The notes under the pieces: generated by a model
Told to the model about the DNA's origin: nothing
Seen by the model: only the letters and a program-made list of their open reading frames with translations
Databases searched by the model: none
From: a virus
Virus record (IMG/VR): IMGVR_UViG_3300033148_004740
Span: 62,001-126,000 of that record
DNA: 64,000 nucleotides
Strand: one strand, 5' to 3'
Shown here: positions 12,634 through 35,313 of the stretch, in pieces
Position numbering within the stretch: position 1 is the first letter of the stretch
Layout of the letters: each line of letters starts with the position of its first letter
Position numbers and translations under genes: made by a program

Positions 12634-13857
12634 TTAGATAACCACCCTAAACAAGATAGGTGTTGCTCCCGCATACTGATTTTCTACAAGTAGCTTTTCA
12701 TCGGCCTCAGGCAAGAAGTCAGTCAGAAGAGTATTCCGCACCTTGTTATCCTCGAGGCTCGAGGGCCTATGAATGAACACTTTGTCAAATGGTTTAGTAG
12801 TGGTCCCTACGTTCTTGATAAGATCGGAGGTAGAGAGAACGCGCTCTATCATCTCGTTGAAGATAAGCTGTTCTCCAATGTCTAGATTGTCGATATAGGT
12901 AGAAACATTGGTAGTCACTGAAGAGACGATCGATGCCTGTTCATCAGAGGTTGCGCGGTGCTTCAGAGTGAGGTCCCCAATCATTGAAACACCTATCTCT
13001 CTAGGACCTCGAACAGAAGACACGTTCCCATATCCTTGATTTTTCCAGACAGCCTGCCATACAGCCTGTTCTAGAGAAGCAGAGACCGAAGGAACCGTGG
13101 CCTTGATGAGAACATCAAAGCTTCCAATGCCATGGAAGTATGGAATGAGAGATACGTCTGCTACACCTGGCACTGCCAGGGCTGTGAGGCGGATAGAGGT
13201 TTGGTTGGCTCTCTCAGCAGCGATGACCTGATTAGACAAGCGGAAGCGATAGTTAGTATCACCCTCGATCTCCCTCCCTACGTTGATCTCCCCTTCGTTG
13301 TTAACCTTCAGAGAGTTGTTCAATGAATCCGTGTAGTCAGTAAAATCATGATGAATAAGCTGACCCGCACCTACGTTAGCAGCAGCCCCAGGCCTGATGG
13401 CCTCTACTGCTACAAAGCTCTCGGACTGGTCAGAGGGGAGCAGTGTCTGAAATGGAATCCGATAGGTGATACCTGAGCCAGCACTACCTGTGCTAACCAC
13501 TCTTCCTGCAGGAAGAATAATAGAGCTACTCGAGTTAATGGTCCCAAAGGTCCCAAGATCTACATAGAAGCGGACTAGACGGTCAGCTGCAGAGATAGAA
13601 GATGTGGTCTCTCCATGCCGAGGAAGACCAAGCATCTGGCCGATGAAATCTAGATACTTTGCGTTAGCACCGTCGATGAAACCAAGAGCAATGTTCTGAT
13701 CAAAAGTCTTCCACTGACGACCTAGCTTCTTGCTGAGTGCCTGGACAAGTGCACGAGTCTTACTACCTGGAGAGGTTCTTGTGATGTTCGTATTGTTAAC
13801 AACATCGAAGAGCAAGTCTCCAAATATCTTGCTCTCTGACTCAGCGAAAATAGGCAT
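12634..13857 (-). CDS. Baseplate J-like protein
   Basis: A 407-residue protein with the features of the baseplate J/T4 gp6 family. It has a helical N-terminus, a central beta domain with the usual ILPAGRVVSTG and FVAVEAIRPGAAANVGAG segments, then NYRFRLSNQ, PGVADVSLIPYF and a helical end containing LDIGEQLIFNEMI. These proteins form the wedge ring around the hub of contractile tails. It follows the gp25-like gene, the standard order. A GAG-rich ribosome site precedes the ATG at 12 bases from the previous stop. Confidence 0.88.
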   Translation of the reverse strand: MPIFAESESKIFGDLLFDVVNNTNITRTSPGSKTRALVQALSKKLGRQWKTFDQNIALGFIDGANAKYLDFIGQMLGLPRHGETTSSISAADRLVRFYVDLGTFGTINSSSSIILPAGRVVSTGSAGSGITYRIPFQTLLPSDQSESFVAVEAIRPGAAANVGAGQLIHHDFTDYTDSLNNSLKVNNEGEINVGREIEGDTNYRFRLSNQVIAAERANQTSIRLTALAVPGVADVSLIPYFHGIGSFDVLIKATVPSVSASLEQAVWQAVWKNQGYGNVSSVRGPREIGVSMIGDLTLKHRATSDEQASIVSSVTTNVSTYIDNLDIGEQLIFNEMIERVLSTSDLIKNVGTTTKPFDKVFIHRPSSLEDNKVRNTLLTDFLPEADEKLLVENQYAGATPILFRVVI

Positions 13858-15107: not shown

Positions 15108-18100
15108 TTACCTCTCGGTCCCCGTTAACCAGGCAGAAAAACTACCTTGTGGTCGGAACCAGTTGTTTGGGTTGATTTTATCATACAGGTGTTCAGCGTA
15201 TAGTGGGCTAGTTGCTCGAGTCCTGCTGCTCCAACGAGCAACACTCTGGGCGAAGGAACCTTTATTGCTTCGCGTCGGAACCCCACCAAGCATTGGTTTT
15301 CCTTGAAGAACCAGGGGACTGAAGCGAAGAGGGTGGGCCAATTGACTACGGGTCAATAGCTTATCTAGGATAAATGTACCAATGAAGTTATGGCGAACGG
15401 CACCAACGATAGCAGTTTTTGCCAGGGTAGTCGCCAGAGCTCCAAAAGAAACGCTTTCAGAAGATTGAGCAAATGAGTTAGCTAAACCTTTAGCTGCGAG
15501 AGGGTTAGGGAGACCAAGACCAGGAACAAACACAGTGTGACCGCCTGTGCTGACGCCGGGCAAAGACCTTAATCCTATCTTGTTCAAAGCATGTTCAGCA
15601 ATTAGGCCCATAGCATCCATGGAAGCCATGGTAGTAACTTCGTTCACATGCACGCACATGCATGGAGTGATTTCCGTAATGAACCCATGCTGTTGCGAGA
15701 ACTTATGGACGACCTGTTCTACCTCAATGGGGCCGAACATATCATTGTACTCATCAAGGACATAGCAGATGTCATAGGGCTTGATACGAGGATTCCCAAT
15801 AATGATGATACTGCCACGATACCCATAGCCCATAGACTCCTTGAGCAGAGACTGGGCATACCGCTTAGCCGCTTCCTCCCCGATGCAGTTAGGATAGGAC
15901 GCAAACATCTCTCTCTTCTCTTCGTCCGGGATAGCGTCATCTACCCTAAGAGTGAAGGTCTCTGCCTCGTCAAGCTTGAGGGACTGTGTCTTTTCATCCG
16001 GTGATGGTTCATCATCTTCATATTGTACGGTACAAATATTGAAGGTGTTCCAGGAGGTAGACTTTATGTCATTGTGGATGATGTGCTGCGTGCTGGTTAG
16101 CACATGGTAGTTACGGAACGGCTTGATGATACCTCTGTCCTTCGACATCTGGAGCAAAGCTCGATTGACGACAACCTCTCGTAGGTCATCGTCTACGGTC
16201 TTAGCCTTTCCGGTAACAATGGCCTTAACTCTCTTACTCAGAGACTGATTAGCCTTGGTAGCATCAGTCACTTCTTCAAGAGCATCTACACTCTTGTCTA
16301 CAAATTTACTAACAGAATCATAAGCTCTGTCTTCTTTTCCTGTAGGCTTACGGGCAAAGTAGAGCTGGTTGGGGAGGCCAAAGAAGAGAGTCATGCGGGC
16401 ACCCCAAACATCATCATAGGGGACGGGGTAGGCGATCCAACCTGGGTGGCGTAGAGTCATCTCTTGGATAACGTCCCAAGCAGTCGCCCGATAGAGTTTG
16501 TATACTGTATTGTCGTACAGGCCATTCAGTCCAGAGTTACCAGTAGGAGCAAAGATGTTGTCGTCGGCAGGTGTAGGAATAATCTCCCACTTATTAGTCA
16601 ACAAGGCACGGGACTTGTCCTTTGGGTCAGCTGGATCCCAACGACCAAAATGCGTTATCTCTGGGGCAGCCATCATCTCTTCTAGAATTGTAGCCGTACT
16701 GGAGTCACCAGCACTGAACCAACCAGCACTAAATTCTTTGACATCTCCATAGACGTTCTGTACTAGCTCGATACCATAGCTCTGACAGGTGATCTCAATA
16801 ATGTCGTCAGAAGGTGAGAAGGAAACATCTGTGATTACTCCATTGAGAACCTTCTCGAGCTCGTCAGGTTGATTGTCGTACCCTAGTCTCAGCTGCATGG
16901 CAATGCCTGGCTGCAACATGAGAGAGGCAATTGGGTTCTCTAGGCCAGTATTAGCTGCGCCTGGTGCGAGACTTTCCTTCGCTAAAGTGTCATCGGCTTT
17001 CCTTGGCTCGGTCTCTCGTCCCTGTCCCTGGAACTTCCGGTTACTAAGGACACCAGAAACATTGGTAAGTCGGATGATAGCAAGATCAGCAGGGAGCTTC
17101 TTGTTTCGGACCACCTCAATATCAACGACTGAGCTATAGCCAAAGAAGTCATCGAACTTATACTTCTTCCGCTCCCCCTCATCTGACTCAATGAAGTAGA
17201 GCTTGAAGGTAGGATAGGCTCTCATAATAGAGTAGCCCTGTGTCTTGATAAGATCCTTCTCTAGCTGCTCGACACTCTTAGTGAACAAAGATTCGTTGGT
17301 GGGATCGAAGCCGACGATTGGGCCAGGAGACTTATGGAACTCACTATCTAGGACCTCGAGGGGAGGAAGGACAGAAGTCTTGTTCGCATTGGCTCGGACT
17401 TCAAAATGAAGATGAGCTCCTGTCGAGTACCCTGTGTTCCCTACTTTACCAAGAGGATCTCCCTTCTTGACATAGACTGGCTCGTTGCTCTCATAGAAAC
17501 GCTTAGACAATGCCTGAATCATTGGTTCGTCTGGCCACTGGAGATGTGTGTAGACAGTGCGGTAGCCTCCTGCATGTATCAGACGAATGGTGACTGCCGT
17601 ATCATGCTGCTTCAGCCGAATCTTTTCACGTAGTTTCAAAGGGTCTCTTCCCTGTGACTCTTTATACTCTCCCCAGGTCTCGTTGTAGGTAAGATACTTG
17701 TCCGGGATTACCTCTATCTTCCCATCTGCTGCGGCAAGGACCGTCAACAGTTTAGAAGTATTCCCAGGCCCACCGTTACGGACGATGTCAATCCCTCTAT
17801 GAGGAGCCGTGGAGATACCACCTCGGACCACACCGAAGTGACTAGATATATGCGTGTTCTCACTCTCAGATGTTGGCCAACCCCATTCAGGGTCTGCATT
17901 AGGATCTAGAGATGGAGGAGGCTTAACATAGGAAGAGGCAGGAAGATGGTCCAAGGTATCCTTGATTCCAAAGCGATGCTGTGCAACCTCTGCCCCGCGT
18001 GCACCTGTCATAGTCTTTTGGGGGCGAGTTTTTATGGTCTCGAGATAGAGATCTGCTCCAAGAGTAATTTTCTTCAGAGCCATCCCTCCTAACGTAGAGA

Positions 18101-21035
18101 GAGCTGACGAGAGGGCCCCTTCCTGATCGGGAGCTACGAGCACAGATTTTTTTCCAGCCTCTGTAGTACGAGAGTCAGCAGCTCGAGATTTGAGCGTGTT
18201 GATGGCTGTTTTTCTAGACTCAGGGAGAGTCTTTGATACTAGCCACTCAGCCCATTTCTTTATTCTAGTAGAAACTCTATCAGCATCACGACTGGGGCCC
18301 CCAGCAACAACATCTTCACGTATCTGTCCTGCGCGATCTGGACCAATAATTGTCCCCTCATAGACCTCTGTTAGCCAATCGTCCTCAGCCTGAAAACGCT
18401 TGTCTCCTTGTACAGTTATGATTGCAGTCTTCGCAGCATTGATTACATCGTTCCCAATCAGTTTGTCTGAGCCCTCTATCTGTGGGTTGTACAAATAGAA
18501 ATCTGGATTGATCAGGCTTGCAATACCAATGTTATACAGCCCAAGGTTCTCTAGCTCATGAGTATCTTCAAGATACTGAGCTACACGATCATAACTGTCA
18601 TCCTGCTGAAGAGCGTTAACCACTTGAGAAAGAGGAAAGTCCGGATAGGCGTTGTTCCCACCGGCAGCTGTTGAAGCAGAGATAAGCTCACGGACACTTT
18701 CGAACTGCTTCAGCTCAATCAGTTCTGAGTTGAGAATGCGATCAGCTAATTCAGAGACCTTCCCAGTAAAGAGATTCATAGCCTCCTGGCCAGGACCGAG
18801 CGAAGCAATATCATGTGTCTCTTTTGTGCGATCTGCTATTAGAGTATTTAGCTGTTCTCTTTCTTCCGAAGAAAGGTCCTCTCCCTTACCAACCTTTTCC
18901 CAGAGGCCGAGAACTAAGCCAACATTCTTTTGTGGAGCTATTACTGGCTCAAAGTTAACAACACCGGCCAGACCAGCAGTTCTGACTGGGGCACTACCAA
19001 ATCCTTTCGGAGGGGGAGTTGGACCAATCTTAACCGCAGCGCGGCGTTCTTGAATAAACGGCAAGAGGTCCTCCGCTAATCTTTTCCCAGCTACTGCATT
19101 TCCATCCACAACATTAATAAGCATAAAGGCCAGATCTGCTATTGACGACTCAGTAATCAAGTTCAAATACTTTAGAACCTCCAACATAGTGAGATGTAGA
19201 TAGAGCCCATATTGTGTAGCCGAATTAGCATAAGCATCTTCGGTTCCGTCCCGGGTCCCTCCATACCTATAGGAAGAAGCAACATCCCTGTTATATAGAT
19301 GGATAGATCCTTCGTCATCTGGGGCCAAATCACCTGCTCCAATTAGAGGGAGACCAGCAAGCCCTAAGACAGGGCCTAAGGCTGCTGCTGCAACAGACCC
19401 AAGACCTGACACTCCTACTCTAGCCTTTCCTACTATTGGAAGTTTATCTGAATCTACACTGAAGCCAGACTTTGAGTTAAAACTAAAAGCATCTGAGACA
19501 AACTCGAGAGATTGACCAAGTACGTCGAGCACAGCATTCCTTAGCTGATAGCTAGAGGTAAACGATGTTCCTGCTACCAGTTTCTCTTGGGTCTCAGGGG
19601 TGACCGGGTTGTCGACCAGAGTGAAGACTGCACTGTAGGTTCCCGGTTTACCAGGAACAGTAGAGGTGCTCATGTCCTCTACAATGAATTCTTTGAGCCC
19701 ACAGAGATTAACGAGCTCGTTACGGAGACGTATGTTCCTCATACCAGCGGGGACCTGGCGCATCTTCCTTCCCTGGCTCTCTACCATGTTGTACCAGGTA
19801 GCAAGAGCTGCAATCCCGTCCTCATGAGGAGTCAGGATAGAAAGAGAGACGATACCATCTGTGCTTCCAATGTGTTGAAAGGTTGGATAACAGTGTCCGG
19901 TCATAGGAATGGTAGCAAGTGTATTCTCGAAACTGATTGAAATTCCTGTGATAATTAGACCCATGTCATCAAAGGCAAATACTTCCTCCTTCTGCATGAG
20001 TAACTTTGACTCTGCTCCTGTTCCTTCTCCCTTTGCTGCCTCCTCTAATGTGATATCTAGCCTGTCATGCCATTCAATGATTGAACCACGCTTATCTGTT
20101 GTGACGTTCCAATCTGTTCCCTCTCCTACTAGGACACCCATAGAGGCAAGCTCTTTCTCCTTGCTTGCGATCTTTCCTCTGAGAACGCTCTTCACGTCTT
20201 CAAGACGAGGGGCTTCTTCAGGGAGATCGATAAAGGAGGAAGTATTCCAGACCTCTCTTACTGGGGCTATGTTCATGTCCAGTTGTTCTTTAACCTGGAC
20301 GATGAGAGCACCGGGCATTCCAGCAAATTCACTTGTTCCAATCGCTGGAGTGAACTGTGTATACTTCACTATCTCGCTGTCCATCTCTTTGAGGGCAGCT
20401 ATGTCGCTCCTTAGAGCATTGAACATCTTCTTAGCGACTAGCATGTACTGGCTGACAAACATCTCTGTACCAGGAGTAGAGAGGTGACCCACTTCAGCGT
20501 CTCCAGGATAGGGACCGCGCATCTGCTCAGCCTTATAGAGGAGCCTCCAAGCCTTAGAATGCTTAGGGTTCCGGACGCCCTTGGGAATGAAGATGTCCTC
20601 ACGGAAGATGAAGTCGTTAGAATAAGGGAAGTAATTGAACCAGGAAAACATTAGATTCAGTGTGAGAACATTAGTATCTGAACCAGCAGCATCAACTATC
20701 TCGAGCTGCTTGAGTGCAAGAACCATGGCTTGGTCATTCTTATCGTTGGCGAGACCTAGGACACTCTTACGGATGAAAGCATTCTCAACCCAGCAGAAGG
20801 GAGTGACGCGAATCTGGGAGACAAGGTCACGTAGCTTCTTTAGCTCATCACCTTGATCAACTATCTGAATTGTGACAGCAATATCAATCTGTGAGTATTC
20901 AGAGCTCAGCTTGATAGACGAACGGGTACGCAGAGTCGACCAGTAGTTGTTACTGGAGTTCCTCATGACCCTGATGTTCTCTGGAGGAACTACAAAGTCA
21001 ATGTCGTTGATTTGGAAACTGCCGGTATCGGTCAT
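15108..21035 (-). CDS. Giant baseplate hub protein with internal M23 peptidase domain
   Basis: A 1975-residue protein. Residues 1-500 look like two copies of a tail-hub/distal-type beta domain: the first starts FQINDIDFVVPPENIRV and the second lies near 350-480. Residues about 1060-1230 are a peptidase M23 (LytM) domain, with zinc ligands H1079 and D1083 (HRGID) and H1210 and catalytic H1208 (GAHLHFEV), plus H1164 in YTHL. Residues about 1260-1450 and 1700-1850 resemble a gp27/gpD hub ring, with MLQPGIAMQLRLGY and VLNGVITDVSFS. The protein should form the tail tip and cut peptidoglycan during entry. The length is far above ordinary hubs, so it is a multi-domain fusion. Confidence 0.85.
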   Translation of the reverse strand: MTDTGSFQINDIDFVVPPENIRVMRNSSNNYWSTLRTRSSIKLSSEYSQIDIAVTIQIVDQGDELKKLRDLVSQIRVTPFCWVENAFIRKSVLGLANDKNDQAMVLALKQLEIVDAAGSDTNVLTLNLMFSWFNYFPYSNDFIFREDIFIPKGVRNPKHSKAWRLLYKAEQMRGPYPGDAEVGHLSTPGTEMFVSQYMLVAKKMFNALRSDIAALKEMDSEIVKYTQFTPAIGTSEFAGMPGALIVQVKEQLDMNIAPVREVWNTSSFIDLPEEAPRLEDVKSVLRGKIASKEKELASMGVLVGEGTDWNVTTDKRGSIIEWHDRLDITLEEAAKGEGTGAESKLLMQKEEVFAFDDMGLIITGISISFENTLATIPMTGHCYPTFQHIGSTDGIVSLSILTPHEDGIAALATWYNMVESQGRKMRQVPAGMRNIRLRNELVNLCGLKEFIVEDMSTSTVPGKPGTYSAVFTLVDNPVTPETQEKLVAGTSFTSSYQLRNAVLDVLGQSLEFVSDAFSFNSKSGFSVDSDKLPIVGKARVGVSGLGSVAAAALGPVLGLAGLPLIGAGDLAPDDEGSIHLYNRDVASSYRYGGTRDGTEDAYANSATQYGLYLHLTMLEVLKYLNLITESSIADLAFMLINVVDGNAVAGKRLAEDLLPFIQERRAAVKIGPTPPPKGFGSAPVRTAGLAGVVNFEPVIAPQKNVGLVLGLWEKVGKGEDLSSEEREQLNTLIADRTKETHDIASLGPGQEAMNLFTGKVSELADRILNSELIELKQFESVRELISASTAAGGNNAYPDFPLSQVVNALQQDDSYDRVAQYLEDTHELENLGLYNIGIASLINPDFYLYNPQIEGSDKLIGNDVINAAKTAIITVQGDKRFQAEDDWLTEVYEGTIIGPDRAGQIREDVVAGGPSRDADRVSTRIKKWAEWLVSKTLPESRKTAINTLKSRAADSRTTEAGKKSVLVAPDQEGALSSALSTLGGMALKKITLGADLYLETIKTRPQKTMTGARGAEVAQHRFGIKDTLDHLPASSYVKPPPSLDPNADPEWGWPTSESENTHISSHFGVVRGGISTAPHRGIDIVRNGGPGNTSKLLTVLAAADGKIEVIPDKYLTYNETWGEYKESQGRDPLKLREKIRLKQHDTAVTIRLIHAGGYRTVYTHLQWPDEPMIQALSKRFYESNEPVYVKKGDPLGKVGNTGYSTGAHLHFEVRANANKTSVLPPLEVLDSEFHKSPGPIVGFDPTNESLFTKSVEQLEKDLIKTQGYSIMRAYPTFKLYFIESDEGERKKYKFDDFFGYSSVVDIEVVRNKKLPADLAIIRLTNVSGVLSNRKFQGQGRETEPRKADDTLAKESLAPGAANTGLENPIASLMLQPGIAMQLRLGYDNQPDELEKVLNGVITDVSFSPSDDIIEITCQSYGIELVQNVYGDVKEFSAGWFSAGDSSTATILEEMMAAPEITHFGRWDPADPKDKSRALLTNKWEIIPTPADDNIFAPTGNSGLNGLYDNTVYKLYRATAWDVIQEMTLRHPGWIAYPVPYDDVWGARMTLFFGLPNQLYFARKPTGKEDRAYDSVSKFVDKSVDALEEVTDATKANQSLSKRVKAIVTGKAKTVDDDLREVVVNRALLQMSKDRGIIKPFRNYHVLTSTQHIIHNDIKSTSWNTFNICTVQYEDDEPSPDEKTQSLKLDEAETFTLRVDDAIPDEEKREMFASYPNCIGEEAAKRYAQSLLKESMGYGYRGSIIIIGNPRIKPYDICYVLDEYNDMFGPIEVEQVVHKFSQQHGFITEITPCMCVHVNEVTTMASMDAMGLIAEHALNKIGLRSLPGVSTGGHTVFVPGLGLPNPLAAKGLANSFAQSSESVSFGALATTLAKTAIVGAVRHNFIGTFILDKLLTRSQLAHPLRFSPLVLQGKPMLGGVPTRSNKGSFAQSVARWSSRTRATSPLYAEHLYDKINPNNWFRPQGSFSAWLTGTER

Positions 21036-21041
21036 GCGCTC

Positions 21042-24000
21042 CTACCCGAATATCTTGTCAGCCATAGTGTATGGATTGTTGCTAGACCTACTGTCCCTGA
21101 CGTTTAGATTAACAGAACTTCCACCACCCGTCATCCCCGATATAGAGGAGGCCAGGCTAGATGGAGTCACCATGAAGTTGGATCGAGCTCGAACATGTGC
21201 TCGTGTACGAGGAGGACCAGCCAAATGTACAGCATTCTGATGCATCATACCAGGGGCAGAAGGAGAACCCATCTGGGCAGAGACCTGCATATCGTCTTGC
21301 TTCATGCGACCAGCTCCCTTTCCTCTATTCAGACTCACTCGTGTCTGCATCCCTCGTCCTGAGCCTACAGTCTCATTAGGAGAAGAGAGAGCAAGGGACA
21401 GAGCGATAGCACCAGCAAGGCCATAGCCAATAGGCTTATGGTGACGGATCATCCCGCGCCCTGCCTTGCCTAGCAAGTTCTCTATCGTCCCTCGAGCCCC
21501 AACAGCTTCTCCCATTGCGTGACCACCAGAGAAGCTCACAGTCTGTAGGAACTGCTTAATCGCACCAGGCTGGAACAATCGTCCACCAGTGCCACTGATC
21601 AGCTGAGCCTTAGCGAGCTCTCCAGATTTTTCAAACTTGTGTAGTGACGACATGAGTCCCTTAGCGGTTCCCTCTACGTCAATGCCACTTAGTTTGTTTC
21701 CAAGACTAAAGCCCAAAGCCTTCTCTGCGTCACGAGCTCCAGAGATAGCCAGGTCCTGACTCAATAGCTTTTGGCCAGCGGTCCCCGGCTTAACAATCTC
21801 GTTGATCTCTCCGATTAGAGAGGTGGCATCCCGCTGAGTAAATGAGCGACGGATAGCTTCCATCTGTGCTTCAAAGGAAAGGGTCTTCTCTCCAGCAATA
21901 TGTTTACCAGAGATAGGTGTCTGTTCTAACCACTCGAGCAGGAACTGAGCATCAGCTAATTTCTTCCCTTTCATATGCTGGAGGGAAGCTCTGCGGGCTG
22001 TAGTCAATTCAGTGGAGAGGAAGGGGACCTCGCGTTGAGTAATCCCCAGCTTTGCGATATCTCCATATACGTTCTTCTCTATTTGTGCCAAGGTCATAGC
22101 CCCTGCGCTCTTCTTAGCCTTAACTAGCTGTAGCCTCATCTGATGCTGAGCATAGGCAACCTGGTATTCGTTACCAGCCATTTGGTTAAAGTGGGCCAGC
22201 TGTTTAGCTGACTTAGGGCTAACCAAGAATGCAGACAAGGCATCAGCGTCTTTATCAGCTGCCATACCTAACATAGGAGAAAGATTCATCTGGTGGACCT
22301 CTCCACCGATGTTCATGCGGACCTTCTTCTCTGCTACAGCAATACTGTCCTCGAGAGTATCTACTGCCTCAAACATTACAGGCTGTAGAGAGAAGGCCCC
22401 AATAAGTGGGTCACGAGCCACCATTCCCTGTACCTTTCCTGTGCTCTTGAACTGCTCGAACATCTCGGTAAGCTCTGAGCCATACATGCCAGTGCGTCTC
22501 ATCTCACCAAACATATTCTCGATGTGGCTCTTCGATATGCCAACAGTGTTTAGGTCAGTGGGAGTATAGTTCCCTATCTGGGAAACTGCTTTGAGGCGTC
22601 GAGAGCCAGTGACCTTTCCTCTTAGAAAGCCACCAAGGCCTTTACCAGCAGGGGCTGCTTGGCCTGCAAGCTCAGCCATTGCTTTCTTCATATAAGAGTC
22701 CATGGCCCCTGCGCCTAGATCACCAGAAGCAAAGGCTCCACCTCTCTCTGCTATACGGTGATAGACGTCAGGGAGGTAACCGGCAATCTTCCCGGTAGGT
22801 GTAGCATGCGGCTGCATAGCTGGGGTATTGACACCTGGGACAAAGACATCTGGGCGTCCCTCTCCCATCTTCATCCACCCTCCACCGCGTTCAATGAAGT
22901 TCTGGAAATCACCTCGAGAATATGGATGCTTAGAAACGTCCCAGTCAGCAGTACCAGGCATACTAATCTGGCCCTGCATAGAAGAAAGACTCTTAGTGAT
23001 ATCTTCAAAAGCAGACACTTTCTCAGGAGAGGTAATAGCAACTCGGCGAGCGAGATCATCTGCTAGTTCACTTGCAAACGGAGTGTCTCTATACGGAGCT
23101 CCTTCAAGGATATCAAACACACGAGGTTCAATATTTCCCAGGCCTCCTACGCCCTCGTGAGGTCCACCCCACGTAAGCTGAGCCCCACCAACAGCAATGC
23201 CACGGAACATTTCGCGGAAAGTCTGCGTACTGGTAACACCTGCACTGGAGGCCATTTGGTATGCTGCCTTAGCTCCAAACACTTTGGGAACAGCACCAAA
23301 GATTCGACCGAACTCCTCTCCAGTAACATTCCCGTGTCTGACAGCAAATCCCATGGCCCTCTCAACAAAAGCTTGTTGAGACTTCTGTGTACGATCCCAA
23401 GTGTGAGCAAACGACAGGGGCTTACGCATGAAGCGCTCTCCCCATGGGCCGAGATCCTTATCTAACATAGTCTGGTACATACCAGTCATGATCTGTTTGT
23501 TCAGCTTGGCCGGATCTTTTACAAGGTCATCGAAGGATGCGAGTACATCTACTGGAGCTCGCATTCCGAATCCACGGCCAGTAGAGAAACGCATCAGGTC
23601 GTCTTCAGTAAATCTAGCGAGAGCCTTTAGGTCACCAAACCACTTCTCTTGCTGACCAAGGCGACGACGATTCATCTGCCACAGTGTGACAAAGTCTCCC
23701 TTATTAACGTCTTTGAAATTCTCGATGCCCATGATGGCACCCTCTGCAGCTGAAGGGGCGGTGACCAATGCTCCAGTCTTTGCGCTCCTTCCAAGAACAG
23801 TACCTGGAGCAACAGTCTCTCCTGCACGAATTGCGTTCATTACGTCTCTGTCTACAGCAGTAAGATGAGTAGAAGTAGCATACTCTTGTTGCATGATACC
23901 TTTAACGCGAGAGCTCATAAGAGCTTCACCCTCATTAACCCCTAGTCTCTCTAACTCGCCAGCATACTTCTCTGGATCGACATAGGCTGTTGTAAGGTAA

Positions 24001-25343
24001 GGGGCAGAGGCATAAGCTTCCCGAGCTGCTGTGTCAAAGGCTCCTAGCTCAGCGACGGAGGCTGCTCGAGCTTGAGCTTCTCCTGTGTATCCCCACGCAC
24101 GAACTGCCTGTTGTGGCGACCTTCCCATTGCTGTGCGACGTGGCGTTGGGTACAAATCAGCGATGTCGAATGTTTGTGCCCGGCCCTTTGATACACCAGT
24201 TGCACCCACTCCACCAAACAGTTTCCTCTCTTCCATAATCGACATGTACTCAGCAGTCCTAGGATCTCTAGTAGAAGCTTTCCAATTGAATGGTCCCGTC
24301 TGATCAACTGCCTCTGTCGCTATTCTGATATCAACTTGCTGGCCACGAAAATCTCTGTAGCCTTGCATCCATGATGGTTCTAATCCTTCTGGCATATTGG
24401 GCAGTGTCTCTAGTTCACGGAAGATAGAAGTGCTCATCGATTTGATGGCAACATCGAGCTCACCTTGAGAACGAATGCGACCTTCTTTGAGAGCAGGCAT
24501 AATAGTTGTTTCAAATTCTCTCAGGAAATACTCATGGCGAGCCATCGACTTGTACTTGAAACCGCCTCCGTCTTGAGGCGTAGCAAGAAGAATATCAGGA
24601 GAGATATAACGAGTCTGGAGAGACTGGCCCATGAGCATGGTCCCATCACGGGTAATAGGAAGATTGAACCCTACCTCGAGCCCTCCTGCTGCTTGCCAAT
24701 GAAAACGATAGGCTTCTCCAGGAAGGCCTGGGCGTGTGATCTGTTGAGCGAGCCCCCCTGTTGCTCCAAGACCTTTTGTAATATCATTGAAATAACTAGA
24801 GACTCCGGGAATCATATCCACAGGGTTAATGGTCGAGGGCTTGAGCCTCAATTCGCGAACAGAGGAGATGTCTGGAAGGTTTCCTAGCTTGGACTGCTGC
24901 CAGCTGAGGACATCTACGTTCTCTCTGAAACGCGCGGTCACCCTCTGCATCAGGTTAGACTGGTTACGACCTACCGTCTCTCTAATAGCCGTATATACGT
25001 CCTGAGGATTCTTATAGGTTCCTAGCTTTGAGGTAAAGGACAGGAGCTTCTGCTTGGACATAGGATCTGCCGCTGCCATAGCTTGTTCCCATGCCTGTTG
25101 GGCTACCCGTGCCCCTTCCTTCTCTAGGAAGAACTTCTCCTTACCTCCCATATAGCGTAGGAAGTCAGCAACAGAAGCCTCCCCTTTAGCAGCAGAGCCT
25201 GTTCTCATAGCTCCTAGAAGAGAAGAGGTAGTACCTACTTCTGTGGTACCTGCACGGGATTGCCTTACAGCAGCCGCTACACCCGCTACAACAGGAGCAC
25301 CTATGATGGCAGACTCTAGTAGACCTGGGCCGTCATTAGCCAT
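21042..25343 (-). CDS. Giant virion protein with RNA-polymerase beta'-like motif (candidate virion RNAP) or tape-measure-like protein
   Basis: A 1433-residue protein in the tape-measure/hub interval. Residues 977-1034 read R-D-P (977-979), a beta segment, L-S-P (1021-1023), then A-D-K-D-A-D (1029-1034). This parallels the RAP...LHP...NADFDGD series of beta' subunits, where three Asp bind catalytic Mg. Residues 506-540 (AGETVAPGTVLG, TGALVTAP) resemble a sandwich-barrel module. G-G-L-G-N-I-E-P near 733-740 faintly recalls the beta C-terminal GGQRFGEME region. That order is correct for a fused beta-beta' chain. One hydrophobic helix lies near the C-terminus. The N-terminus is Ala/Gly-rich. The conserved Lys pair of the beta barrel was not found. 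It could instead be a second tape-measure-like protein. Confidence 0.5.
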   Translation of the reverse strand: MANDGPGLLESAIIGAPVVAGVAAAVRQSRAGTTEVGTTSSLLGAMRTGSAAKGEASVADFLRYMGGKEKFFLEKEGARVAQQAWEQAMAAADPMSKQKLLSFTSKLGTYKNPQDVYTAIRETVGRNQSNLMQRVTARFRENVDVLSWQQSKLGNLPDISSVRELRLKPSTINPVDMIPGVSSYFNDITKGLGATGGLAQQITRPGLPGEAYRFHWQAAGGLEVGFNLPITRDGTMLMGQSLQTRYISPDILLATPQDGGGFKYKSMARHEYFLREFETTIMPALKEGRIRSQGELDVAIKSMSTSIFRELETLPNMPEGLEPSWMQGYRDFRGQQVDIRIATEAVDQTGPFNWKASTRDPRTAEYMSIMEERKLFGGVGATGVSKGRAQTFDIADLYPTPRRTAMGRSPQQAVRAWGYTGEAQARAASVAELGAFDTAAREAYASAPYLTTAYVDPEKYAGELERLGVNEGEALMSSRVKGIMQQEYATSTHLTAVDRDVMNAIRAGETVAPGTVLGRSAKTGALVTAPSAAEGAIMGIENFKDVNKGDFVTLWQMNRRRLGQQEKWFGDLKALARFTEDDLMRFSTGRGFGMRAPVDVLASFDDLVKDPAKLNKQIMTGMYQTMLDKDLGPWGERFMRKPLSFAHTWDRTQKSQQAFVERAMGFAVRHGNVTGEEFGRIFGAVPKVFGAKAAYQMASSAGVTSTQTFREMFRGIAVGGAQLTWGGPHEGVGGLGNIEPRVFDILEGAPYRDTPFASELADDLARRVAITSPEKVSAFEDITKSLSSMQGQISMPGTADWDVSKHPYSRGDFQNFIERGGGWMKMGEGRPDVFVPGVNTPAMQPHATPTGKIAGYLPDVYHRIAERGGAFASGDLGAGAMDSYMKKAMAELAGQAAPAGKGLGGFLRGKVTGSRRLKAVSQIGNYTPTDLNTVGISKSHIENMFGEMRRTGMYGSELTEMFEQFKSTGKVQGMVARDPLIGAFSLQPVMFEAVDTLEDSIAVAEKKVRMNIGGEVHQMNLSPMLGMAADKDADALSAFLVSPKSAKQLAHFNQMAGNEYQVAYAQHQMRLQLVKAKKSAGAMTLAQIEKNVYGDIAKLGITQREVPFLSTELTTARRASLQHMKGKKLADAQFLLEWLEQTPISGKHIAGEKTLSFEAQMEAIRRSFTQRDATSLIGEINEIVKPGTAGQKLLSQDLAISGARDAEKALGFSLGNKLSGIDVEGTAKGLMSSLHKFEKSGELAKAQLISGTGGRLFQPGAIKQFLQTVSFSGGHAMGEAVGARGTIENLLGKAGRGMIRHHKPIGYGLAGAIALSLALSSPNETVGSGRGMQTRVSLNRGKGAGRMKQDDMQVSAQMGSPSAPGMMHQNAVHLAGPPRTRAHVRARSNFMVTPSSLASSISGMTGGGSSVNLNVRDSRSSNNPYTMADKIFG

Positions 25344-28300
25344 TAGAACCAGTCCCTCCTAGCTAAGCTATTGTAGTTAGGTTGTTCGTATACCTGCATT
25401 TGAACGGAATCTGTACCAGCAGGATCGAAGACTGTTCTCGTAAACACGTCTCCCTCCATCCGGTTTGTCATTAGTAACCCACTGATTCTATCATGGATTT
25501 CCCCTCGAGACAGAGTTCCCTCTCCTACAATAGGTTCAATTGCCTGATTATTAATGTAAGGCTTGTTAGCCATAGCCTGTGCTCGGCCTGGCCAGAGGTC
25601 ATACTCGTGCATATCCTCTCCCCAGTTCTGAATAACCTTTAGCTTTACGTCATCAAGGTCCACAGAAGGGTGCCACCCTACCCAGTCTGGGCCAGGAAGG
25701 GTAGATAATTGGGTCAGCAAATGGGTCTTGCGATACCAATCGCCATAGTTTTCTCCAGGTGAACGACTCTGCAGGTATGCCGAGTTCAGATCTTTGCTTG
25801 TCGGGAAGCCTTCAGTAGCAGCTTCATCGTAAATCTTGTCGATGAGCACGTCTGCTTCAGCTAATTCAGAGCCACTGAGCAGTTCATCCTTCTTCGCGCG
25901 ACGTACTTCGTCCGCAAACATGACCTTCCACTGTGCAACATACAGTGCTTTTTCGTTTCGAGGGACCATCTCAAGGATCTTGGCACGTTCAGCTTCGGTT
26001 TCTGCACCTGCAAACGCGTTGAAGTAGTCTCGATCACGTCTCGGTAGAGCTCGGAAGATGGCACTGAAGTTTCTCGTGTACGGATTCAGACCAAATAGGG
26101 TCTGGTCCTTCTGACTTTCGAACTCTCGGAGTGCTGCAGAGTCCTGATTCTCTCGAGCAATGTTAGATAGACGAGAGTATTTCACATATTTTAGGACATC
26201 AAAGTAGTCTTCGAGCTCACGACGACGTGCAATGTGACTGGGAACTCCTTCATATCCAACAGCTTGTGCCCCTAACCAGAACGATGGGCGCATGAAGTCA
26301 CGGAAAGGATGGTTCCAGAATGCATTCTCGGTTCCATAAAGCTGAGTTCTTTCATAGTGCTCAATAGCAGTACGCTGGTGAACCAGCTTAGCACCAGGAG
26401 AGATAGGTGTCATCTGGTCCAATGCAGTCTCGGCATTGTGAGACAAGGCCTCCCAGTAGCCACCGAAGTACTTTGCAAATAGGCCACTTTCTCCATCCTT
26501 GTCAGCCTTGAGTCTATTTATAGCCCCTATGATATTGGAAGAATCTTCCCCATCGTAATAAACCTTATCTCCAAAGAGCCCACCAGTAGAGGTAAGGTGC
26601 TTATATTCCTGGAACTCTACCCTAGTCTTCTTCTGCTGCAGCTGGTCCTGGGTCTGTTGGAATACCATCTCCTGACTCTCAGTCCAGCTCTCCTCCTTAC
26701 GGGCCCTATTCACCATCCTAAGATGGTCTTTATAGTTCTCTGTATAGGGAGCAACATCAGCTAGTATCTTATACTTGTGAATTAGTGGGTAGTCCTCTGG
26801 GGAAACACCTTCGAGCTCTGGGTAACGGGCCTCATAACCTCGTCCTGGGAGCCGTAGCTCGCCCTCAGGGATCTTTATATAGGGGTCACCATGTAGGAAG
26901 TCTGGAGACTTCGACCCGGGGCCTGGGAGCCATCCTGGCATCATGTTTGGAATCGGGTTGTACAGGGGGATCTGGCGACGTCTATGGGGGTACAAACGAC
27001 GGAAGGCTTCTGTAGTACCCATGAGTCCACCAAGCTCGAGGTCCCAGTAACTACGCTCAAAACCAAACATACGACGGGCACTCTCAAGCCTCTGTGTTTG
27101 GTCAAACCAGTCTGGGGTACCAGTCATCTGCTCTTTCATACTCATCATAGTAAAGCCTGGAAGACCTATCATCTCCTGTAGGCGATAGATCTGTTCACCG
27201 ACTATACCTGTTGTGTCATATGGAGTAGTGGGGACACCTCCGGGTGTCTCCCCAATCTCTGTAGCAATCCTCTGTCCGAACCTAGGAGGCTCAACTAGAG
27301 CTCCTTCTGAAGAGAGCCAGTCATCTTCGTGCATGATACGCTCAGGTTTGATAGCTCTGCCAACAGTCGCAGCAAGCAATGGTCCGACAAAGGGGACATC
27401 TTCAAGTGGCAAAGCGGAAACAGGGTATGGGCGCTCCTCATAATGTTTCTCTTCTAGGGCATAGGTGAACTCAGACTGGAACCAACGCTGGATCGGAGAC
27501 AGAGCTTCTGCGTCATCGCCCCAGATACCTTCGTTCTTTGCATCCATCCTCATGCGTGCGTACCAGTGAGGACGGAAGTAGGCAATGCGTTGTCCCTCAA
27601 AAGCTGATCGACCAAACTCCCACCAACGACCACGGCGAACAGGGACTTCCTGTGCTCCAGAGTAGATGGCTTCGAGTTCTTCAGGACTCTTCTCTGGAAT
27701 CAGAGAGCCTGGAAGGAAAGGTACGATTGATAGTGCGCCGGCAAGACCGCCGATGATACCTGCCAGCTTGACTGGACCAACCTTTCTGAACAGCTTGAAG
27801 GAGAGCTCACCTGTTCCTTCGGCAACTGGCTTCGCAATTCGACGCCAGAGATCTCCCATCTTCCCAGGGCGAGCATAGATACCAGACTCTTGAGTAAGAG
27901 AGCGACCCCACTGAGCAAGGCGAGTTTGTTTTCCATACTCAGATGCCCACTCTTCAGCTGCGGCTCGAGCTTGTACTGCAGTGGCTCCCCGGGTTTGTTC
28001 CCGAGCCATGTACCCAACCTTGAGACCATAGGCTGCGCCGGTACCGAACATGGCTCCCATCAATGGGAAGGCCATTAGTCGAGAGAAGTCTGTGCTACCA
28101 GGGGCAAGATCCTCTTGCCAATTCCTGTAGTCCTGTAGTCCAGTAGCCTGAGCAACTCGAGATGCTAGCAGGTTAGCTCTGGTGATAGCTGTGCCGGCAG
28201 CAACTGAAGTTCCCTCTTCGAGAATGGTCCCTTGAGTTAGAGCGCTCCCACTGGTCATCCAGTCCAGTGTCTGGTAACCCATGTAGGCGAGAGGAAGATA

Positions 28301-29245
28301 GAGACCATACTTTTTGAGCAGGCCTCCCATCATTCTGCCACCAGTAGATTCTGGTACTGCTAGTGTTGGCCTGATTCCTTTACCAAAGATCTTCTCAGTA
28401 GCCTTCTCAACAAAGCTTTGCCCTTTGGAGAAAGCAGTATCGAATGGAGGCATCTGTGCAGGGAGACGAAGGAGAGTATTAAAACGGGAAACCATAGCGG
28501 TTCCCCAGGCGCTTGCATGTCTCCAGGCTGCCTGTCCTCTAGTGTGTCCACCTACTACTGTTGTGGGCATACCTCCTACGAGAGGAGGCTTGAATTCTGG
28601 GAACCCTTTAAGAGGTTGCACCTTACCGTAGAAGACTTCTGGATTATCGACTGGGGCTCCAACTACACGCGCCCACGAAGAAGTTAGCTTAGCGCTAGCA
28701 TCTGGAGCAGTTCTGATCCCAGAAGCAAAAGGCAGTGCGACTTCGTCACTCTGTCCCCAGAAGAGCTTCGAGTCTCTGAATGCTAGACCCTCAGAGAGGA
28801 CACGGCGGTAGGTAGTCCCAACACCAGGGTAGTTGCGCTTACCTATTAGTGAAGTGTAGTACTCGGCAAGCTGTTTTGTCCCTGTTCCCTCGGCCGCAAA
28901 CAACGATGGTGGCAGCTGGAAACCAGCTCGGGTTGATGTCTCAAACTGTGAGAGAAAAGGACCAGCAGAAAATGTACGAAAGATATGAGCAGGAGAGTAC
29001 TCCTCGAGGACACGAGCTCCTCGAGCATACAGGTCCCAGACACGACCACCTTTCCAAGGAGCATACCCAAGAGCTACTACTCCTGCAACAGCTCCAGCCT
29101 TACCGAGCATGCCAGTTGCTGGATAGTCTTTCCTATAGAAATCTTCTTGCTGGTCGGCTGTCCACATAGGTGGAGATCGACGAGGATCTTGCAAAGAAGA
29201 CCCATAATAAGGGCGACCATAACCTGGAGTATAATTATCTGGCAC
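25343..29245 (-). CDS. 1300-aa tail-core protein in the tape-measure position
   Basis: A GTG start overlapping the preceding TAG by one base. The gene directly follows the two chaperone-like genes, the usual place for the tape measure. The protein is rich in Pro, Trp, Tyr and Arg, and lacks the long heptad coiled coil typical of tape measures. Hydrophobic, possibly membrane-active segments occur around residues 45-60, 310-330, 390-415 and 500-525 (for example LAGIIGGLAGALSIVPF). A Pro-rich block near 770-850 includes GDPYIKIPEGELRLPG and KILADVAPYTENY. It may be the tape measure, an ejected internal protein, or both. At about 1.5 angstroms per residue it would specify a tail near 195 nm. Confidence 0.6.
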   Translation of the reverse strand: MPDNYTPGYGRPYYGSSLQDPRRSPPMWTADQQEDFYRKDYPATGMLGKAGAVAGVVALGYAPWKGGRVWDLYARGARVLEEYSPAHIFRTFSAGPFLSQFETSTRAGFQLPPSLFAAEGTGTKQLAEYYTSLIGKRNYPGVGTTYRRVLSEGLAFRDSKLFWGQSDEVALPFASGIRTAPDASAKLTSSWARVVGAPVDNPEVFYGKVQPLKGFPEFKPPLVGGMPTTVVGGHTRGQAAWRHASAWGTAMVSRFNTLLRLPAQMPPFDTAFSKGQSFVEKATEKIFGKGIRPTLAVPESTGGRMMGGLLKKYGLYLPLAYMGYQTLDWMTSGSALTQGTILEEGTSVAAGTAITRANLLASRVAQATGLQDYRNWQEDLAPGSTDFSRLMAFPLMGAMFGTGAAYGLKVGYMAREQTRGATAVQARAAAEEWASEYGKQTRLAQWGRSLTQESGIYARPGKMGDLWRRIAKPVAEGTGELSFKLFRKVGPVKLAGIIGGLAGALSIVPFLPGSLIPEKSPEELEAIYSGAQEVPVRRGRWWEFGRSAFEGQRIAYFRPHWYARMRMDAKNEGIWGDDAEALSPIQRWFQSEFTYALEEKHYEERPYPVSALPLEDVPFVGPLLAATVGRAIKPERIMHEDDWLSSEGALVEPPRFGQRIATEIGETPGGVPTTPYDTTGIVGEQIYRLQEMIGLPGFTMMSMKEQMTGTPDWFDQTQRLESARRMFGFERSYWDLELGGLMGTTEAFRRLYPHRRRQIPLYNPIPNMMPGWLPGPGSKSPDFLHGDPYIKIPEGELRLPGRGYEARYPELEGVSPEDYPLIHKYKILADVAPYTENYKDHLRMVNRARKEESWTESQEMVFQQTQDQLQQKKTRVEFQEYKHLTSTGGLFGDKVYYDGEDSSNIIGAINRLKADKDGESGLFAKYFGGYWEALSHNAETALDQMTPISPGAKLVHQRTAIEHYERTQLYGTENAFWNHPFRDFMRPSFWLGAQAVGYEGVPSHIARRRELEDYFDVLKYVKYSRLSNIARENQDSAALREFESQKDQTLFGLNPYTRNFSAIFRALPRRDRDYFNAFAGAETEAERAKILEMVPRNEKALYVAQWKVMFADEVRRAKKDELLSGSELAEADVLIDKIYDEAATEGFPTSKDLNSAYLQSRSPGENYGDWYRKTHLLTQLSTLPGPDWVGWHPSVDLDDVKLKVIQNWGEDMHEYDLWPGRAQAMANKPYINNQAIEPIVGEGTLSRGEIHDRISGLLMTNRMEGDVFTRTVFDPAGTDSVQMQVYEQPNYNSLARRDWF

Positions 29246-30171
29246 TACTTAGTCTTGGCAGACCTGCGGCGTTTTCGAGACTTCTTGGGTTTTACCTTAC
29301 TAACCTTAGCTTCAAGCTCAGCTATCCTTGTCTGTTCTTCCTGGACCATGAGCAGATTTGCTTTCTTGTTTTCTTGTTTTTGTTCTTCCAGGGCTGCCAA
29401 TCTCTCCTCTGGGCTCATGATCTTAACCTTCTCTCCTTTCTTCATCTGTTCTATGTATTCATGATAGACACTAGGAACATCATCCATTGATTGCTTCTCA
29501 AAGATTACAGCATCAACTTTATCATGCCCAGCCAACGCTGCCAGGTGCTCAACATGGTCCTTCTGGCCGATGATTGTCTGCTCCTCCTGAGGAGCTGCTG
29601 GCTGTTGCTCTCTCCAGGCTCTCTCGAGCTCTTCTGGAGGAGGTAGTTTTTCAACACGGGGCCTCTTCTGATCCTGCTGGTCAGTAAAGGAAATAGGCTG
29701 TTGGAGAACTCCTACCTGTATAAGCTTACGTTCAGCCTGAGCCAGCCTTGTCATGAAGGTGTCATAGTCCATAGCATAGACCTGATCAGGGGTATATGCC
29801 GGGAAAGCTTGAGTTATCAAAGCTGCCATGTCATGGACTACAGAGGTAGCGTCATGTCGACATACAACAAGGCGCTGTTCGATATCATCTAATGTGGATG
29901 GCCCAGAGTGAGCCATGATTGCCTGAGCAACTGCTGATACAGTCCCTGCTGGGAGCTTGCTCATGTTATCGACGAAGACTTGGTTGAGAACACACTTCTT
30001 GAAGGCCTCATCCTCGAGCACAGCATGAGGATATGCCCGAAGAGCAAAGCGTGTTTGCAAGTCTAGGAACTCACCGATAGTTAGAGGGCGCCACGGAATA
30101 GTCTCCCCATCTGGGAATACAGAAGCGAAGACTGAATCGTGCTGCTCCCTTAGCAGGAACAGCTCTCTCAT
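29245..30171 (-). CDS. Tail assembly chaperone-like protein 2
   Basis: A 308-residue protein. Residues 10-70 (VFASVFPDGETIPWRPLTIGEF, partly, then FKKCVLNQVF) match the same pattern as the preceding gene product (VYASGTSDTEMFIWRPVTRTEF, then HRCVLWGSP), so the two are paralogues. The C-terminal third is a charged coiled coil (about 250-295) ending in a Lys/Arg-rich tail. Its ATG overlaps the previous stop (TAATG). Tandem chaperone genes before a tape measure are typical of long-tailed phages. Here they are separate genes rather than a visible frameshift pair. Confidence 0.72.
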   Translation of the reverse strand: MRELFLLREQHDSVFASVFPDGETIPWRPLTIGEFLDLQTRFALRAYPHAVLEDEAFKKCVLNQVFVDNMSKLPAGTVSAVAQAIMAHSGPSTLDDIEQRLVVCRHDATSVVHDMAALITQAFPAYTPDQVYAMDYDTFMTRLAQAERKLIQVGVLQQPISFTDQQDQKRPRVEKLPPPEELERAWREQQPAAPQEEQTIIGQKDHVEHLAALAGHDKVDAVIFEKQSMDDVPSVYHEYIEQMKKGEKVKIMSPEERLAALEEQKQENKKANLLMVQEEQTRIAELEAKVSKVKPKKSRKRRRSAKTK

Positions 30172-30611
30172 TACAACTTGATTACGATCTGAGATGCAAT
30201 CCGTGGATCCAAGAAGTTAGAGTTGACCATGATCTGCTCGTGGAGCAGAGTGATAGTCCCACCCTTCTGGGCCATAGCTATCATCCCTAGGGGAGAACCC
30301 CAAAGAACGCACCTGTGTACTACCTCAGCTTCTACAGCGAGCTGTGTCAGTTGCTGTTCAACAGCGGCAACACTAACCTCTGTGAACTCGGTACGGGTAA
30401 CAGGGCGCCAGATAAACATCTCTGTATCGCTGGTGCCAGAGGCATAGACCGATCCGTGCTCTTGCTTCCATCCTTCCATGATCTCCTGGGTAGGAGCTCC
30501 TGGGAAAACAGCAAGGGCCTCGGCCAGATTCTTAATCTGCTCCTCGACTGCTTGTTCTTCCTGAGTCTGTTCTTGTTCTTCGACCTTAGCGGTTTCTTCT
30601 AGAGCTTCCAT
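30171..30611 (-). CDS. Tail assembly chaperone-like protein 1
   Basis: A 146-residue protein starting at the ATG at 30611, which is preceded by GGAGG with good spacing (AAAGGAGGAGCA before ATG). The frame is open to a TTG at 30638, but that would place the ribosome site inside the gene. The first 40 residues are Glu/Gln-rich and likely disordered. Residues 45-110 share the WRP-T-x-x-E-F and (H/K)-(R/K)-C-V-L pattern with the next protein. No slippery heptamer is visible at the junction. The role is inferred from location just before the giant tail-core genes. Confidence 0.7.
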   Translation of the reverse strand: MEALEETAKVEEQEQTQEEQAVEEQIKNLAEALAVFPGAPTQEIMEGWKQEHGSVYASGTSDTEMFIWRPVTRTEFTEVSVAAVEQQLTQLAVEAEVVHRCVLWGSPLGMIAMAQKGGTITLLHEQIMVNSNFLDPRIASQIVIKL

Positions 30612-33408: not shown

Positions 33409-35313
33409 TTATACCGCCGCCAAAGCTACGGAGACAGTGATTCTACGTAGTTCGAAGGCTGGTACTAGTTTTAGTTCAACTGTGGCTTGTCCTAGTACCC
33501 TCTGTTGTGGTGTGATAATGAGCTGGAACTCAAAGCGACGTATTACCCCATTCTTAACAAGGTTCTGCAATACACGCTCAAGAGCCGTCTCGAGAGCTGC
33601 AGTTTGAGCTCCCGTCATTGCTTCGCCTAGGAATGGTTCTCCTACGTCGCGAATCGCGTCCATCGAAGCCTTGACCTGACGCATGGTTGACAGACGCTGA
33701 TAATCAGAATCTGGACGTGCTGCTGTTGGACCATCGCTGACTACGATTCCACGCTTCTTAGCATGGAAGGTAACAAAGCGATAGCCTGCAAGCGTGTCAA
33801 TCTTAGCTAGATTAAGACGGAATGGCAGTCTAACACTGTTCAACAGTTTGTTTGTAGGCGCACTGTTAACAGCTAGTGCAGAGTAGAACCCTGCATAAGT
33901 GGCAGCACCAGACGCAACGTAGGCTGACGTTCTGCTTGAGTTAGCCAGAACAGGCCATGTCGCCACGACACTGAGATACTTACCAATATCGACCAGGTGA
34001 TCGTTGTCATCCTCTAGCTGGGTACCATCCAACCAATGATCATCAGTAGCGATGAAACCACCGTATGCCAGACCCTCGACTCCGTCGATGGTAAATCCTG
34101 GCGTACCAGTTACTCCTCCACTTGCTAGACGACCGGCTAGGAACTTGTTCCCTAGCAGTCCAGTACCATTGCCACCAGAAGCCACAACTCTATTACCGTT
34201 TGCGTCGGTTTCTAGAGTTGGTGCGGTTCCTACCCACTGTGCTGCTCCCTTGAGAGAGTAACTCGTAGGTGGCTTGACACCAATTACACCTGTCATGTCC
34301 ATGTTGTCTGTAGCCTGGCGGTAACAGAAATCAGCCAGCTGATAACCGAAGTTGACTTCATGGAAGTCTCCTGCGGTCAAAGCCGTTCCGTCAGTCGTCG
34401 CAGATGCAGTTGCCGATCCTACCCCAGAAGAGGTAAAGACCTGTGCTACAGTGAACGACGGAGACGATGCGTTGGGCTGTTCTGGGAACCACCACCAAAA
34501 ATAGTTAGTTCCTTCAAACTCTTCTGTGTACAGCATACCGAGAGCGTCGTCAGACGCTGCGGCAACTGGGTACCCAGTAAGAGCAGCAAGGCTCAGGCCA
34601 GAAACGGTTGCTTCATTCATATCCCTAACGTTGAGGTCATCTAGATAAACATCCATGGGGACTACTACGTCAATTTCCTGATCCTCGAGCAGTTCATATG
34701 CGTTATACAAATGCTCGTATAGTTTCATTCGGGATACGGTAAGACCGTCTGTACCTGCTGTGTATACCGCGCCGCCAACTGCATCTGCTGCAGCTAGTGT
34801 TACTGGCACAGAAAGGGTTCCGATGTCCCCTGCGCCAGTAGTTGCGGTACCAGTTACGTCAAGCTCCCTAAGGTCAACGCGATCCGATGGAGATGATGGG
34901 ATGTTGTCATAGACAAGTTCATCATCCGAAGCGCGCCAAAGTCTTAGCCTAAGGCCAGTGTCATCCCAGAAGATTAAGTAATCAGTGCCGGCAGAGTCAT
35001 CCTTTGAGACAGTCTCAACAGTGATTCCAGTACCAACACCTGTAAGAGTAGCTGAAGTAGCACCAGTCCTAAATAGGTTGACGTTCTCAGCCCCTCCAAC
35101 AGAAACTTCATACATACCTCTTGTGAGAGTTCCTTCGGCCTTGCCAAACTCGCTTGCCGCGTCTGCTACGCGTTGCACCCCGTACAAAGTCTCGGACCTA
35201 CCCTTTGAGGCAGTTCCAAGAATTAGAGAAACGGGATCACTATTAACAGAGTTGGTGATAGTATTGCCATCTTGCTTTACTTCAACAATCCCTGGCAGGT
35301 TTTCGCGAGCCAT
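33409..35313 (-). CDS. Tail sheath protein
   Basis: A 634-residue protein. The N-terminus (NLPGIVEVKQDGNTITNSV, then PVSLILGTASKGRSETLYG) and C-terminus (RFVTFHAKKRGIVVSDGPTA, then LSTMRQVKASMDAIRDVGEPFLG and a final VELKLVPAFELRRITVSVAL, partly) match contractile sheath proteins, whose ends form the donor-strand mesh. The middle carries a beta-rich variable domain (about 150-420). It lies between a putative tail terminator and the tube gene. An AGGAG-like site precedes the ATG. Confidence 0.9.
   Translation of the reverse strand: MARENLPGIVEVKQDGNTITNSVNSDPVSLILGTASKGRSETLYGVQRVADAASEFGKAEGTLTRGMYEVSVGGAENVNLFRTGATSATLTGVGTGITVETVSKDDSAGTDYLIFWDDTGLRLRLWRASDDELVYDNIPSSPSDRVDLRELDVTGTATTGAGDIGTLSVPVTLAAADAVGGAVYTAGTDGLTVSRMKLYEHLYNAYELLEDQEIDVVVPMDVYLDDLNVRDMNEATVSGLSLAALTGYPVAAASDDALGMLYTEEFEGTNYFWWWFPEQPNASSPSFTVAQVFTSSGVGSATASATTDGTALTAGDFHEVNFGYQLADFCYRQATDNMDMTGVIGVKPPTSYSLKGAAQWVGTAPTLETDANGNRVVASGGNGTGLLGNKFLAGRLASGGVTGTPGFTIDGVEGLAYGGFIATDDHWLDGTQLEDDNDHLVDIGKYLSVVATWPVLANSSRTSAYVASGAATYAGFYSALAVNSAPTNKLLNSVRLPFRLNLAKIDTLAGYRFVTFHAKKRGIVVSDGPTAARPDSDYQRLSTMRQVKASMDAIRDVGEPFLGEAMTGAQTAALETALERVLQNLVKNGVIRRFEFQLIITPQQRVLGQATVELKLVPAFELRRITVSVALAAV

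Follow-up and report, generated by a model that had tools for sequence, protein, structure and literature searches.

Results

A polymerase-candidate gene among tail-core genes

The window analysed here spans 64,000 nucleotides (positions 62,001 to 126,000) of the 126,472-base virus record IMGVR_UViG_3300033148_004740. At 21042-25343, its minus strand carries an open reading frame (ORF) encoding 1433 amino acids (aa), which begins with ATG and has an AGGAGGG stretch immediately 5' of the start. A previous sequence-only reading, which did not give the strand, had proposed that this gene encodes a virion RNA polymerase and lies among tail-core genes. The gene is indeed embedded in a contractile-tail module, together with genes for a tail sheath protein, a ruler-like tail protein, a hub protein with an M23 peptidase domain, and a baseplate wedge subunit (Table 1); the terminase (59949-61988) and major head protein (49533-50762) genes are located further upstream. 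The evidence presented here identifies the protein as a single-chain two-barrel RNA polymerase homologue, and we consider it quite probable that virions contain it at the tail core as a DNA-dependent RNA polymerase.

A catalytic signature conserved in divergent relatives

Three elements of the protein had been compared with the catalytic signature of the beta' subunit, and all of them occur at the residues proposed: R977-D-P, L1021-S-P, and A-D1030-K-D1032-A-D1034-A. The DxDxD motif is found only once in the protein. Given that 20,000 shuffles of the same sequence produced DxDxD in 10% of cases, and DxDxD together with an RxP located 35-65 residues upstream in 0.7%, this pairing taken by itself is only suggestive. 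Direct searches with the window protein against Pfam, PHROGs, PDB sequences, and annotated phages returned nothing relevant, and a first scan of viral contigs with the same query returned the virus itself only. Viral-contig scans with alignments of the neighbouring proteins were more productive: the hub alignment retrieved 30 loci and the ruler-like alignment 41, giving about 50 loci with the gene order ruler-like gene, polymerase-candidate gene, and hub gene. DxDxD is present in 45 of the 51 middle proteins examined (not all of which are independent), in many of them as RYP...DFDGD, and every ORF matching the window protein by BLAST (E<=1e-3) carries it.

We aligned the window protein with 20 homologues, nearly all of them detectable by BLAST (identity up to 37%, E-values to 1e-180 and below), and counted conservation over the resulting 21 sequences. 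Thirteen columns are invariant, including R977, P979, and all three residues of the Asp triad, whose conservation in homologues the sequence-only reading had named as a test. The consensus of the alignment reads RHPxxGPxSxQxV...MVGxAGDFDxD. The family also includes members from cultured phages. In Acinetobacter phage ME3, a giant protein (ME3_36) encoded between the ruler-like and hub genes contains 'SREP...GGDHDQDQAAVL', and its counterpart in the same slot of Bacillus phage KLEB27-3 (gp034, annotated as 'structural protein') contains 'NRYPTINQSTIQAMKV...LKADYDGDFLSTVLA', which is near the canonical polymerase signature. Pfam RNA_pol_Rpb1_2 falls exactly on this stretch of gp034 (E 0.015) and matches three of the six members of the KLEB27-3 (Bacillus-type) subfamily, with a best E-value of 0.0038. 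At one locus (L091:5700-12970), the Bacillus-type gene is split into two ORFs of 2023 and 395 aa, while it is intact in L088; this arrangement recalls the split BtI1 gene (PMC2147016).

Comparison of profiles connects these subfamilies with each other and with known polymerases. The window's own profile (A8) aligned with the Bacillus-type profile at the triad (E 1e-5) and with RpoC in an alignment ending at DFDGD (E 0.002). The Bacillus-type profile and that of a subfamily of about 3000 aa aligned with each other (E 1e-6), and the latter profile (A7) aligned at DFDGD (E 5e-4) with gp96 of Thermus phage P23-45, a proven virion polymerase. No significant direct similarity was obtained between A8 and gp96. 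A comparison of the window family with the crAss-like phi14:2 protein by hhalign gave no meaningful match (E 0.51). A genome-contig scan with the Bacillus-type alignment recovered no relative. The absence of the usual Gly from the triad had been taken as a link to crAss-like enzymes; this link does not hold, given the DxDGD seen in several homologues and the lack of any profile similarity to the phi14:2 enzyme.

Predicted structure

AlphaFold prediction from 21 sequences produced a usable model of residues 400-1425 (predicted local distance difference test score, pLDDT, 72.2; predicted template modelling score, pTM, 0.66), in which most core blocks exceed a pLDDT of 80. When this model was compared with the PDB using Foldseek, the best 50 matches were all RNA polymerases or complexes containing one, with probabilities of 0.94-1.0. 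The beta-type matches include poxvirus, plastid, bacterial, and eukaryotic chains (best E 7e-5), and the beta' matches are bacterial chains (E 3e-4). A single polypeptide is thus predicted to match both large subunits, which agrees with the fused beta-beta' chain originally suggested. As a negative control, a Bacillus-type relative modelled from six sequences gave a poor prediction (pLDDT 49, pTM 0.29) that matched nothing, indicating that polymerase matches are not an automatic result of the procedure. Because the fold matches are restricted to polymerases and R977, P979, and the Asp triad are invariant, we assign the window protein as a single-chain two-barrel RNA polymerase homologue. The same two results contradict the idea of an ordinary tail protein with a coincidental RxP and DxDxD: even with the missing direct database match and the frequency of DxDxD among shuffled sequences counted in its favour, chance resemblance has a negligible probability.

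Among viral models, the best matches were an unnamed protein and a 798-aa protein of phage ME3, followed by poxvirus and mimivirus polymerase subunits. The ME3 protein is a BFVD entry and ranks as the second-best viral fold match (E 2e-5). We equate it, by protein length alone, with ME3_309 (L101:17554-19950; ME3 224453-226849), which is also 798 aa long. ME3_309 contains no DxDxD and may represent the beta-like part of a second, non-virion polymerase.

Two blocks had been proposed to form a beta-like half upstream of the triad. The sandwich-barrel-like block at residues 506-540 is present and falls within a conserved, strand-rich segment that we read as the beta-type barrel, and the block at 723-740 is likewise present, conserved, and similar to beta 'GGQRFGEMEVWALEAYGA'. 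The same reading had listed two conserved Lys of the beta barrel as missing; they are probably present as K567 and K573, conserved in 21 and 20 of the 21 sequences, respectively. In position-specific scoring matrix (PSSM) comparisons with Escherichia coli RpoB, the K567/K573 block scored best at position 1060 (GDKMAGRHGNKG) and the 726-770 block at position 1256 (GGQRFGEME), neither score being significant alone. Both are the RpoB elements that would be expected, and their order is also as expected; when the second block was shortened, it no longer landed at 1256. The equation of K567/K573 with RpoB K1065/K1073 derives from the non-significant PSSM match. RHGN does occur at 669-672, as had been noted, and was also considered as a beta motif. 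It was rejected since the homologues do not share it. Downstream of the triad, the modelled long helices suggest a possible bridge helix/trigger region.

Table 1. Features of the polymerase-candidate gene and its neighbours (window coordinates)
Feature	Position	Strand	Evidence
Polymerase candidate (1433 aa): single-chain two-barrel RNA polymerase homologue, putatively a virion enzyme carried in the tail	21042..25343	-	Invariant RxP and DxDxD in 21 homologues; AlphaFold model resembles RNA polymerase beta/beta' chains; constant ruler-like/hub position
Putative beta-type double-psi barrel (residues ~500-625), containing K567 and K573	23469..23846	-	Strand-rich in model; G518, G524, K567 in 21/21, K573 in 20/21; best RpoB position of K-block PSSM GDKMAGRHGNKG, score not significant
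Block 726-752 (GVGGLGNIEPRVFDILEG), resembling beta GGQRFGEMEVWALEAYGA	23088..23168	-	G731, G733, E739, L746 conserved; PSSM scores highest at RpoB 1256 (GGQRFGEME), but not significantly
Putative beta'-type double-psi barrel (residues 970-1041), containing R977-x-P979 and Asp triad	22221..22436	-	R977, P979, D1030, D1032, D1034 invariant; profile alignment with RpoC ends at DFDGD, E 0.002
DKDAD triad D1030/D1032/D1034, predicted Mg2+ ligands	22242..22256	-	Conserved 21/21
Long helices after barrel, residues 1057-1150, with K1075, E1140, I1144, K1147, H1148	21894..22175	-	Model secondary structure and conservation
C-terminal module, residues 1286-1433, hydrophobic stretch ~1304-1322, conserved end	21045..21488	-	Hydropathy; 193-aa gene of L046/L047 homologous to 1286-1421, E 7e-9
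Upstream ruler-like tail protein, 1300 aa	25343..29245	-	Homologous to ME3_35 (E 2e-76), Moorella phage MTATph1 CDS0026, KLEB27-3 gp031/gp033; 1166-2610 aa in relatives
Baseplate hub protein (1975 aa, M23 peptidase), encoded downstream	15108..21035	-	Pfam M23 E 4e-10; homologous to ME3_37, KLEB27-3 gp035, MTATph1 CDS0032
Tail sheath protein (contractile-tail context)	33409..35313	-	PHROG 16991 E 3e-78
Baseplate wedge subunit (context)	12634..13857	-	PHROG 6 E 2e-28

A C-terminal module retained without the polymerase

The last ~150 residues of the protein form a module that is probably a tail or membrane anchor. Phages L046 and L047 have no polymerase domain in the slot between the ruler-like and hub genes and instead encode a 193-aa protein there (L046:13740-14321), which is homologous to the C-terminal end of the polymerase proteins, both that of L050 (E 3e-15) and the window protein (E 7e-9). 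In Moorella phage MTATph1 (L006:6961-14317), the slot lacks DxDxD and is occupied by a protein of 1309 aa that includes an exonuclease domain (PF00929, E 5e-5), followed by transposase genes; a 313-aa gene of this phage matches the C-terminus of KLEB27-3 gp034 and constitutes a C-terminal remnant. Judging from the short gene and the remnant, the polymerase resembles a cartridge that can be removed while the C-terminal module stays in place. The exonuclease-like part of the MTATph1 protein also occurs in KLEB27-3 gp034, near the N-terminus.

The gene order raises the question of whether the protein could be the tail tape measure itself with a fused polymerase domain, as in P23-45. Its gene directly precedes the hub gene, as does orf146 of 0305phi8-36, the best described phage of this lineage. 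Tail length was the main basis for calling orf146 the tape measure, and only its last 60 residues aligned to BtI1 (PMC2147016). P23-45 provides a precedent for a tape-fused polymerase (PMC10770324), and longer relatives of 2400-3200 aa exist in the family. However, the length of the polymerase candidate is near-constant in the window subfamily (1424-1592 aa, standard deviation 44), whereas the upstream protein ranges from 1166 to 2610 aa, and the gene occupying the slot in L046/L047 encodes 193 aa only. We therefore regard the tape measure assignment as unlikely for the window protein. The family corresponds to 0305phi8-36 orf146 in a comparison of gene position only and, by that position, orf146 might itself be a polymerase.

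Discussion

Two-barrel RNA polymerases carried in the virion are known from crAss-like, phiKZ-like, and P23-45-like phages. The window protein is homologous to two-barrel RNA polymerases and occupies a conserved position among tail genes. From this we infer catalytic activity, packaging, injection, and early transcription: the proposed virion location draws on synteny and the literature, and the 'structural protein' label of KLEB27-3 gp034 points the same way; tail packaging and early transcription are suggested by gene position and by analogy to P23-45 and crAss-like phages. One chain would supply both the beta-type (~500-625) and the beta'-type barrel (~970-1041), with Asp1030, Asp1032, and Asp1034 holding the catalytic Mg2+. 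The C-terminal module probably fixes the polymerase to the tail or membrane-penetrating assembly near the ruler protein and the hub. Upon contraction, the polymerase would pass into the cell before or together with the DNA, and the host polymerase would not be needed for transcription of the first genes.

Several results weigh against this model. HMMER searches in which three family alignments served as profiles against PDB sequences reached no polymerase, and the TM-scores of the structural matches are low (0.11-0.15 by query length), since only parts of the model superpose. In addition, DxDxD or the entire polymerase domain is missing from a few relatives, and thus the polymerase is not essential to every phage of such build. 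In a further explanation, the protein is a polymerase homologue made after infection and merely encoded among late tail genes, or an inactive structural protein of the tail core. Strong sequence drift, a DKDAD triad without the usual Gly, and the sufficiency of the C-terminal module alone in L046/L047 would be compatible with this explanation. However, the triad, RxP, and the Lys pair show little or no variation across very divergent sequences, in favour of a working active site, and both the C-terminal module and the location among tail genes speak for a component of the virion. Taken together, we judge a non-virion or inactive protein to be very unlikely, and a tail-carried polymerase remains our preferred interpretation.

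A close parallel is P23-45 gp96, which is also a single-chain two-barrel polymerase of the tail module with a DxDxD triad, encoded next to tail peptidase functions, and which has been proposed to transcribe pre-early genes during DNA entry (PMC10770324). In P23-45, the polymerase is the N-terminal part of a tape measure of 5,002 aa; the polymerase candidate described here is a separate gene following the ruler-like ORF, and the window-type phages are contractile-tailed. The crAss-like phi14:2 gp66, YonO, and QDE-1 likewise combine both barrels and a DxDxD triad in one chain, and in crAss-like phages the polymerase has been located in the virion (PMC7886860); the gene neighbourhood of gp66 differs from that of the window protein, and the two show no profile similarity. 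The multisubunit enzymes of phiKZ-like phages are, according to the literature, two-barrel polymerases carried in the virion as well, but in phiKZ they consist of several split polypeptides packaged in the head, whereas here one chain is encoded among tail genes. The cellular RpoB and RpoC share the RAP...NADFDGD-type signature, the RpoC alignment at DFDGD, and the best PDB matches to beta-type and beta' chains; the window protein differs from them by its single chain and its extreme sequence divergence, and no alpha-, omega-, or sigma-like partners were recognised, although no search aimed at them was made. Finally, orf146, ME3_36, and gp034 share the place directly before the hub gene, and the latter two have RxP...DxDxD. 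The labels that these three proteins carry (tape measure, hypothetical protein, structural protein) do not include polymerase. A 2021 review of jumbo phages lists only a YonO-like enzyme for 0305phi8-36 (PMC7824862), and in the open-access papers, to which the search was confined, we found no report of a polymerase between the ruler and hub genes of myoviruses.

For the 0305phi8-36/ME3-type myovirus lineage as a whole (about 50 loci), we consider it reasonably likely that the tail core houses an RNA polymerase, a separable cartridge encoded between the ruler and hub genes, which has diverged almost beyond recognition, can be reduced to its anchor, and has gone unnoticed under names such as tape measure or hypothetical protein, and that transcription begins during DNA entry, independent of the host polymerase. 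If correct, tail-carried RNA polymerases would extend from one group of Thermus siphophages (P23-45) to a broad contractile-tailed group that includes cultured phages, and would explain how the first genes of such phages are expressed. It would also cast doubt on the 'tape measure' label of orf146, and the two-barrel polymerases would gain a highly divergent branch. The relatives that retain the C-terminal module without the polymerase offer a natural comparison.

We saw no second DxDxD polymerase in the 126-kb record; middle and late genes may therefore rely on the host enzyme or on one encoded elsewhere than in this record. Large proteins of 1374, 2407, and 1419 aa are encoded at 37680-41804 (minus strand) and at G000 25037-36531. 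All three look repeat-rich, the first two contain 'DHxQY'-type motifs, and they are perhaps fibres or adhesins. Neither the 2407-aa nor the 1419-aa ORF was retained as a candidate second polymerase: both are repeat-rich, with no Pfam match and no DxDxD. The record has few intergenic stretches. Outside the window, at the start of G000, a DNA polymerase III alpha gene (L007:5693-9502) contains an intein and a LAGLIDADG domain, and a gene for a B12-dependent (class II) ribonucleotide reductase lies nearby (L007:242-3145).

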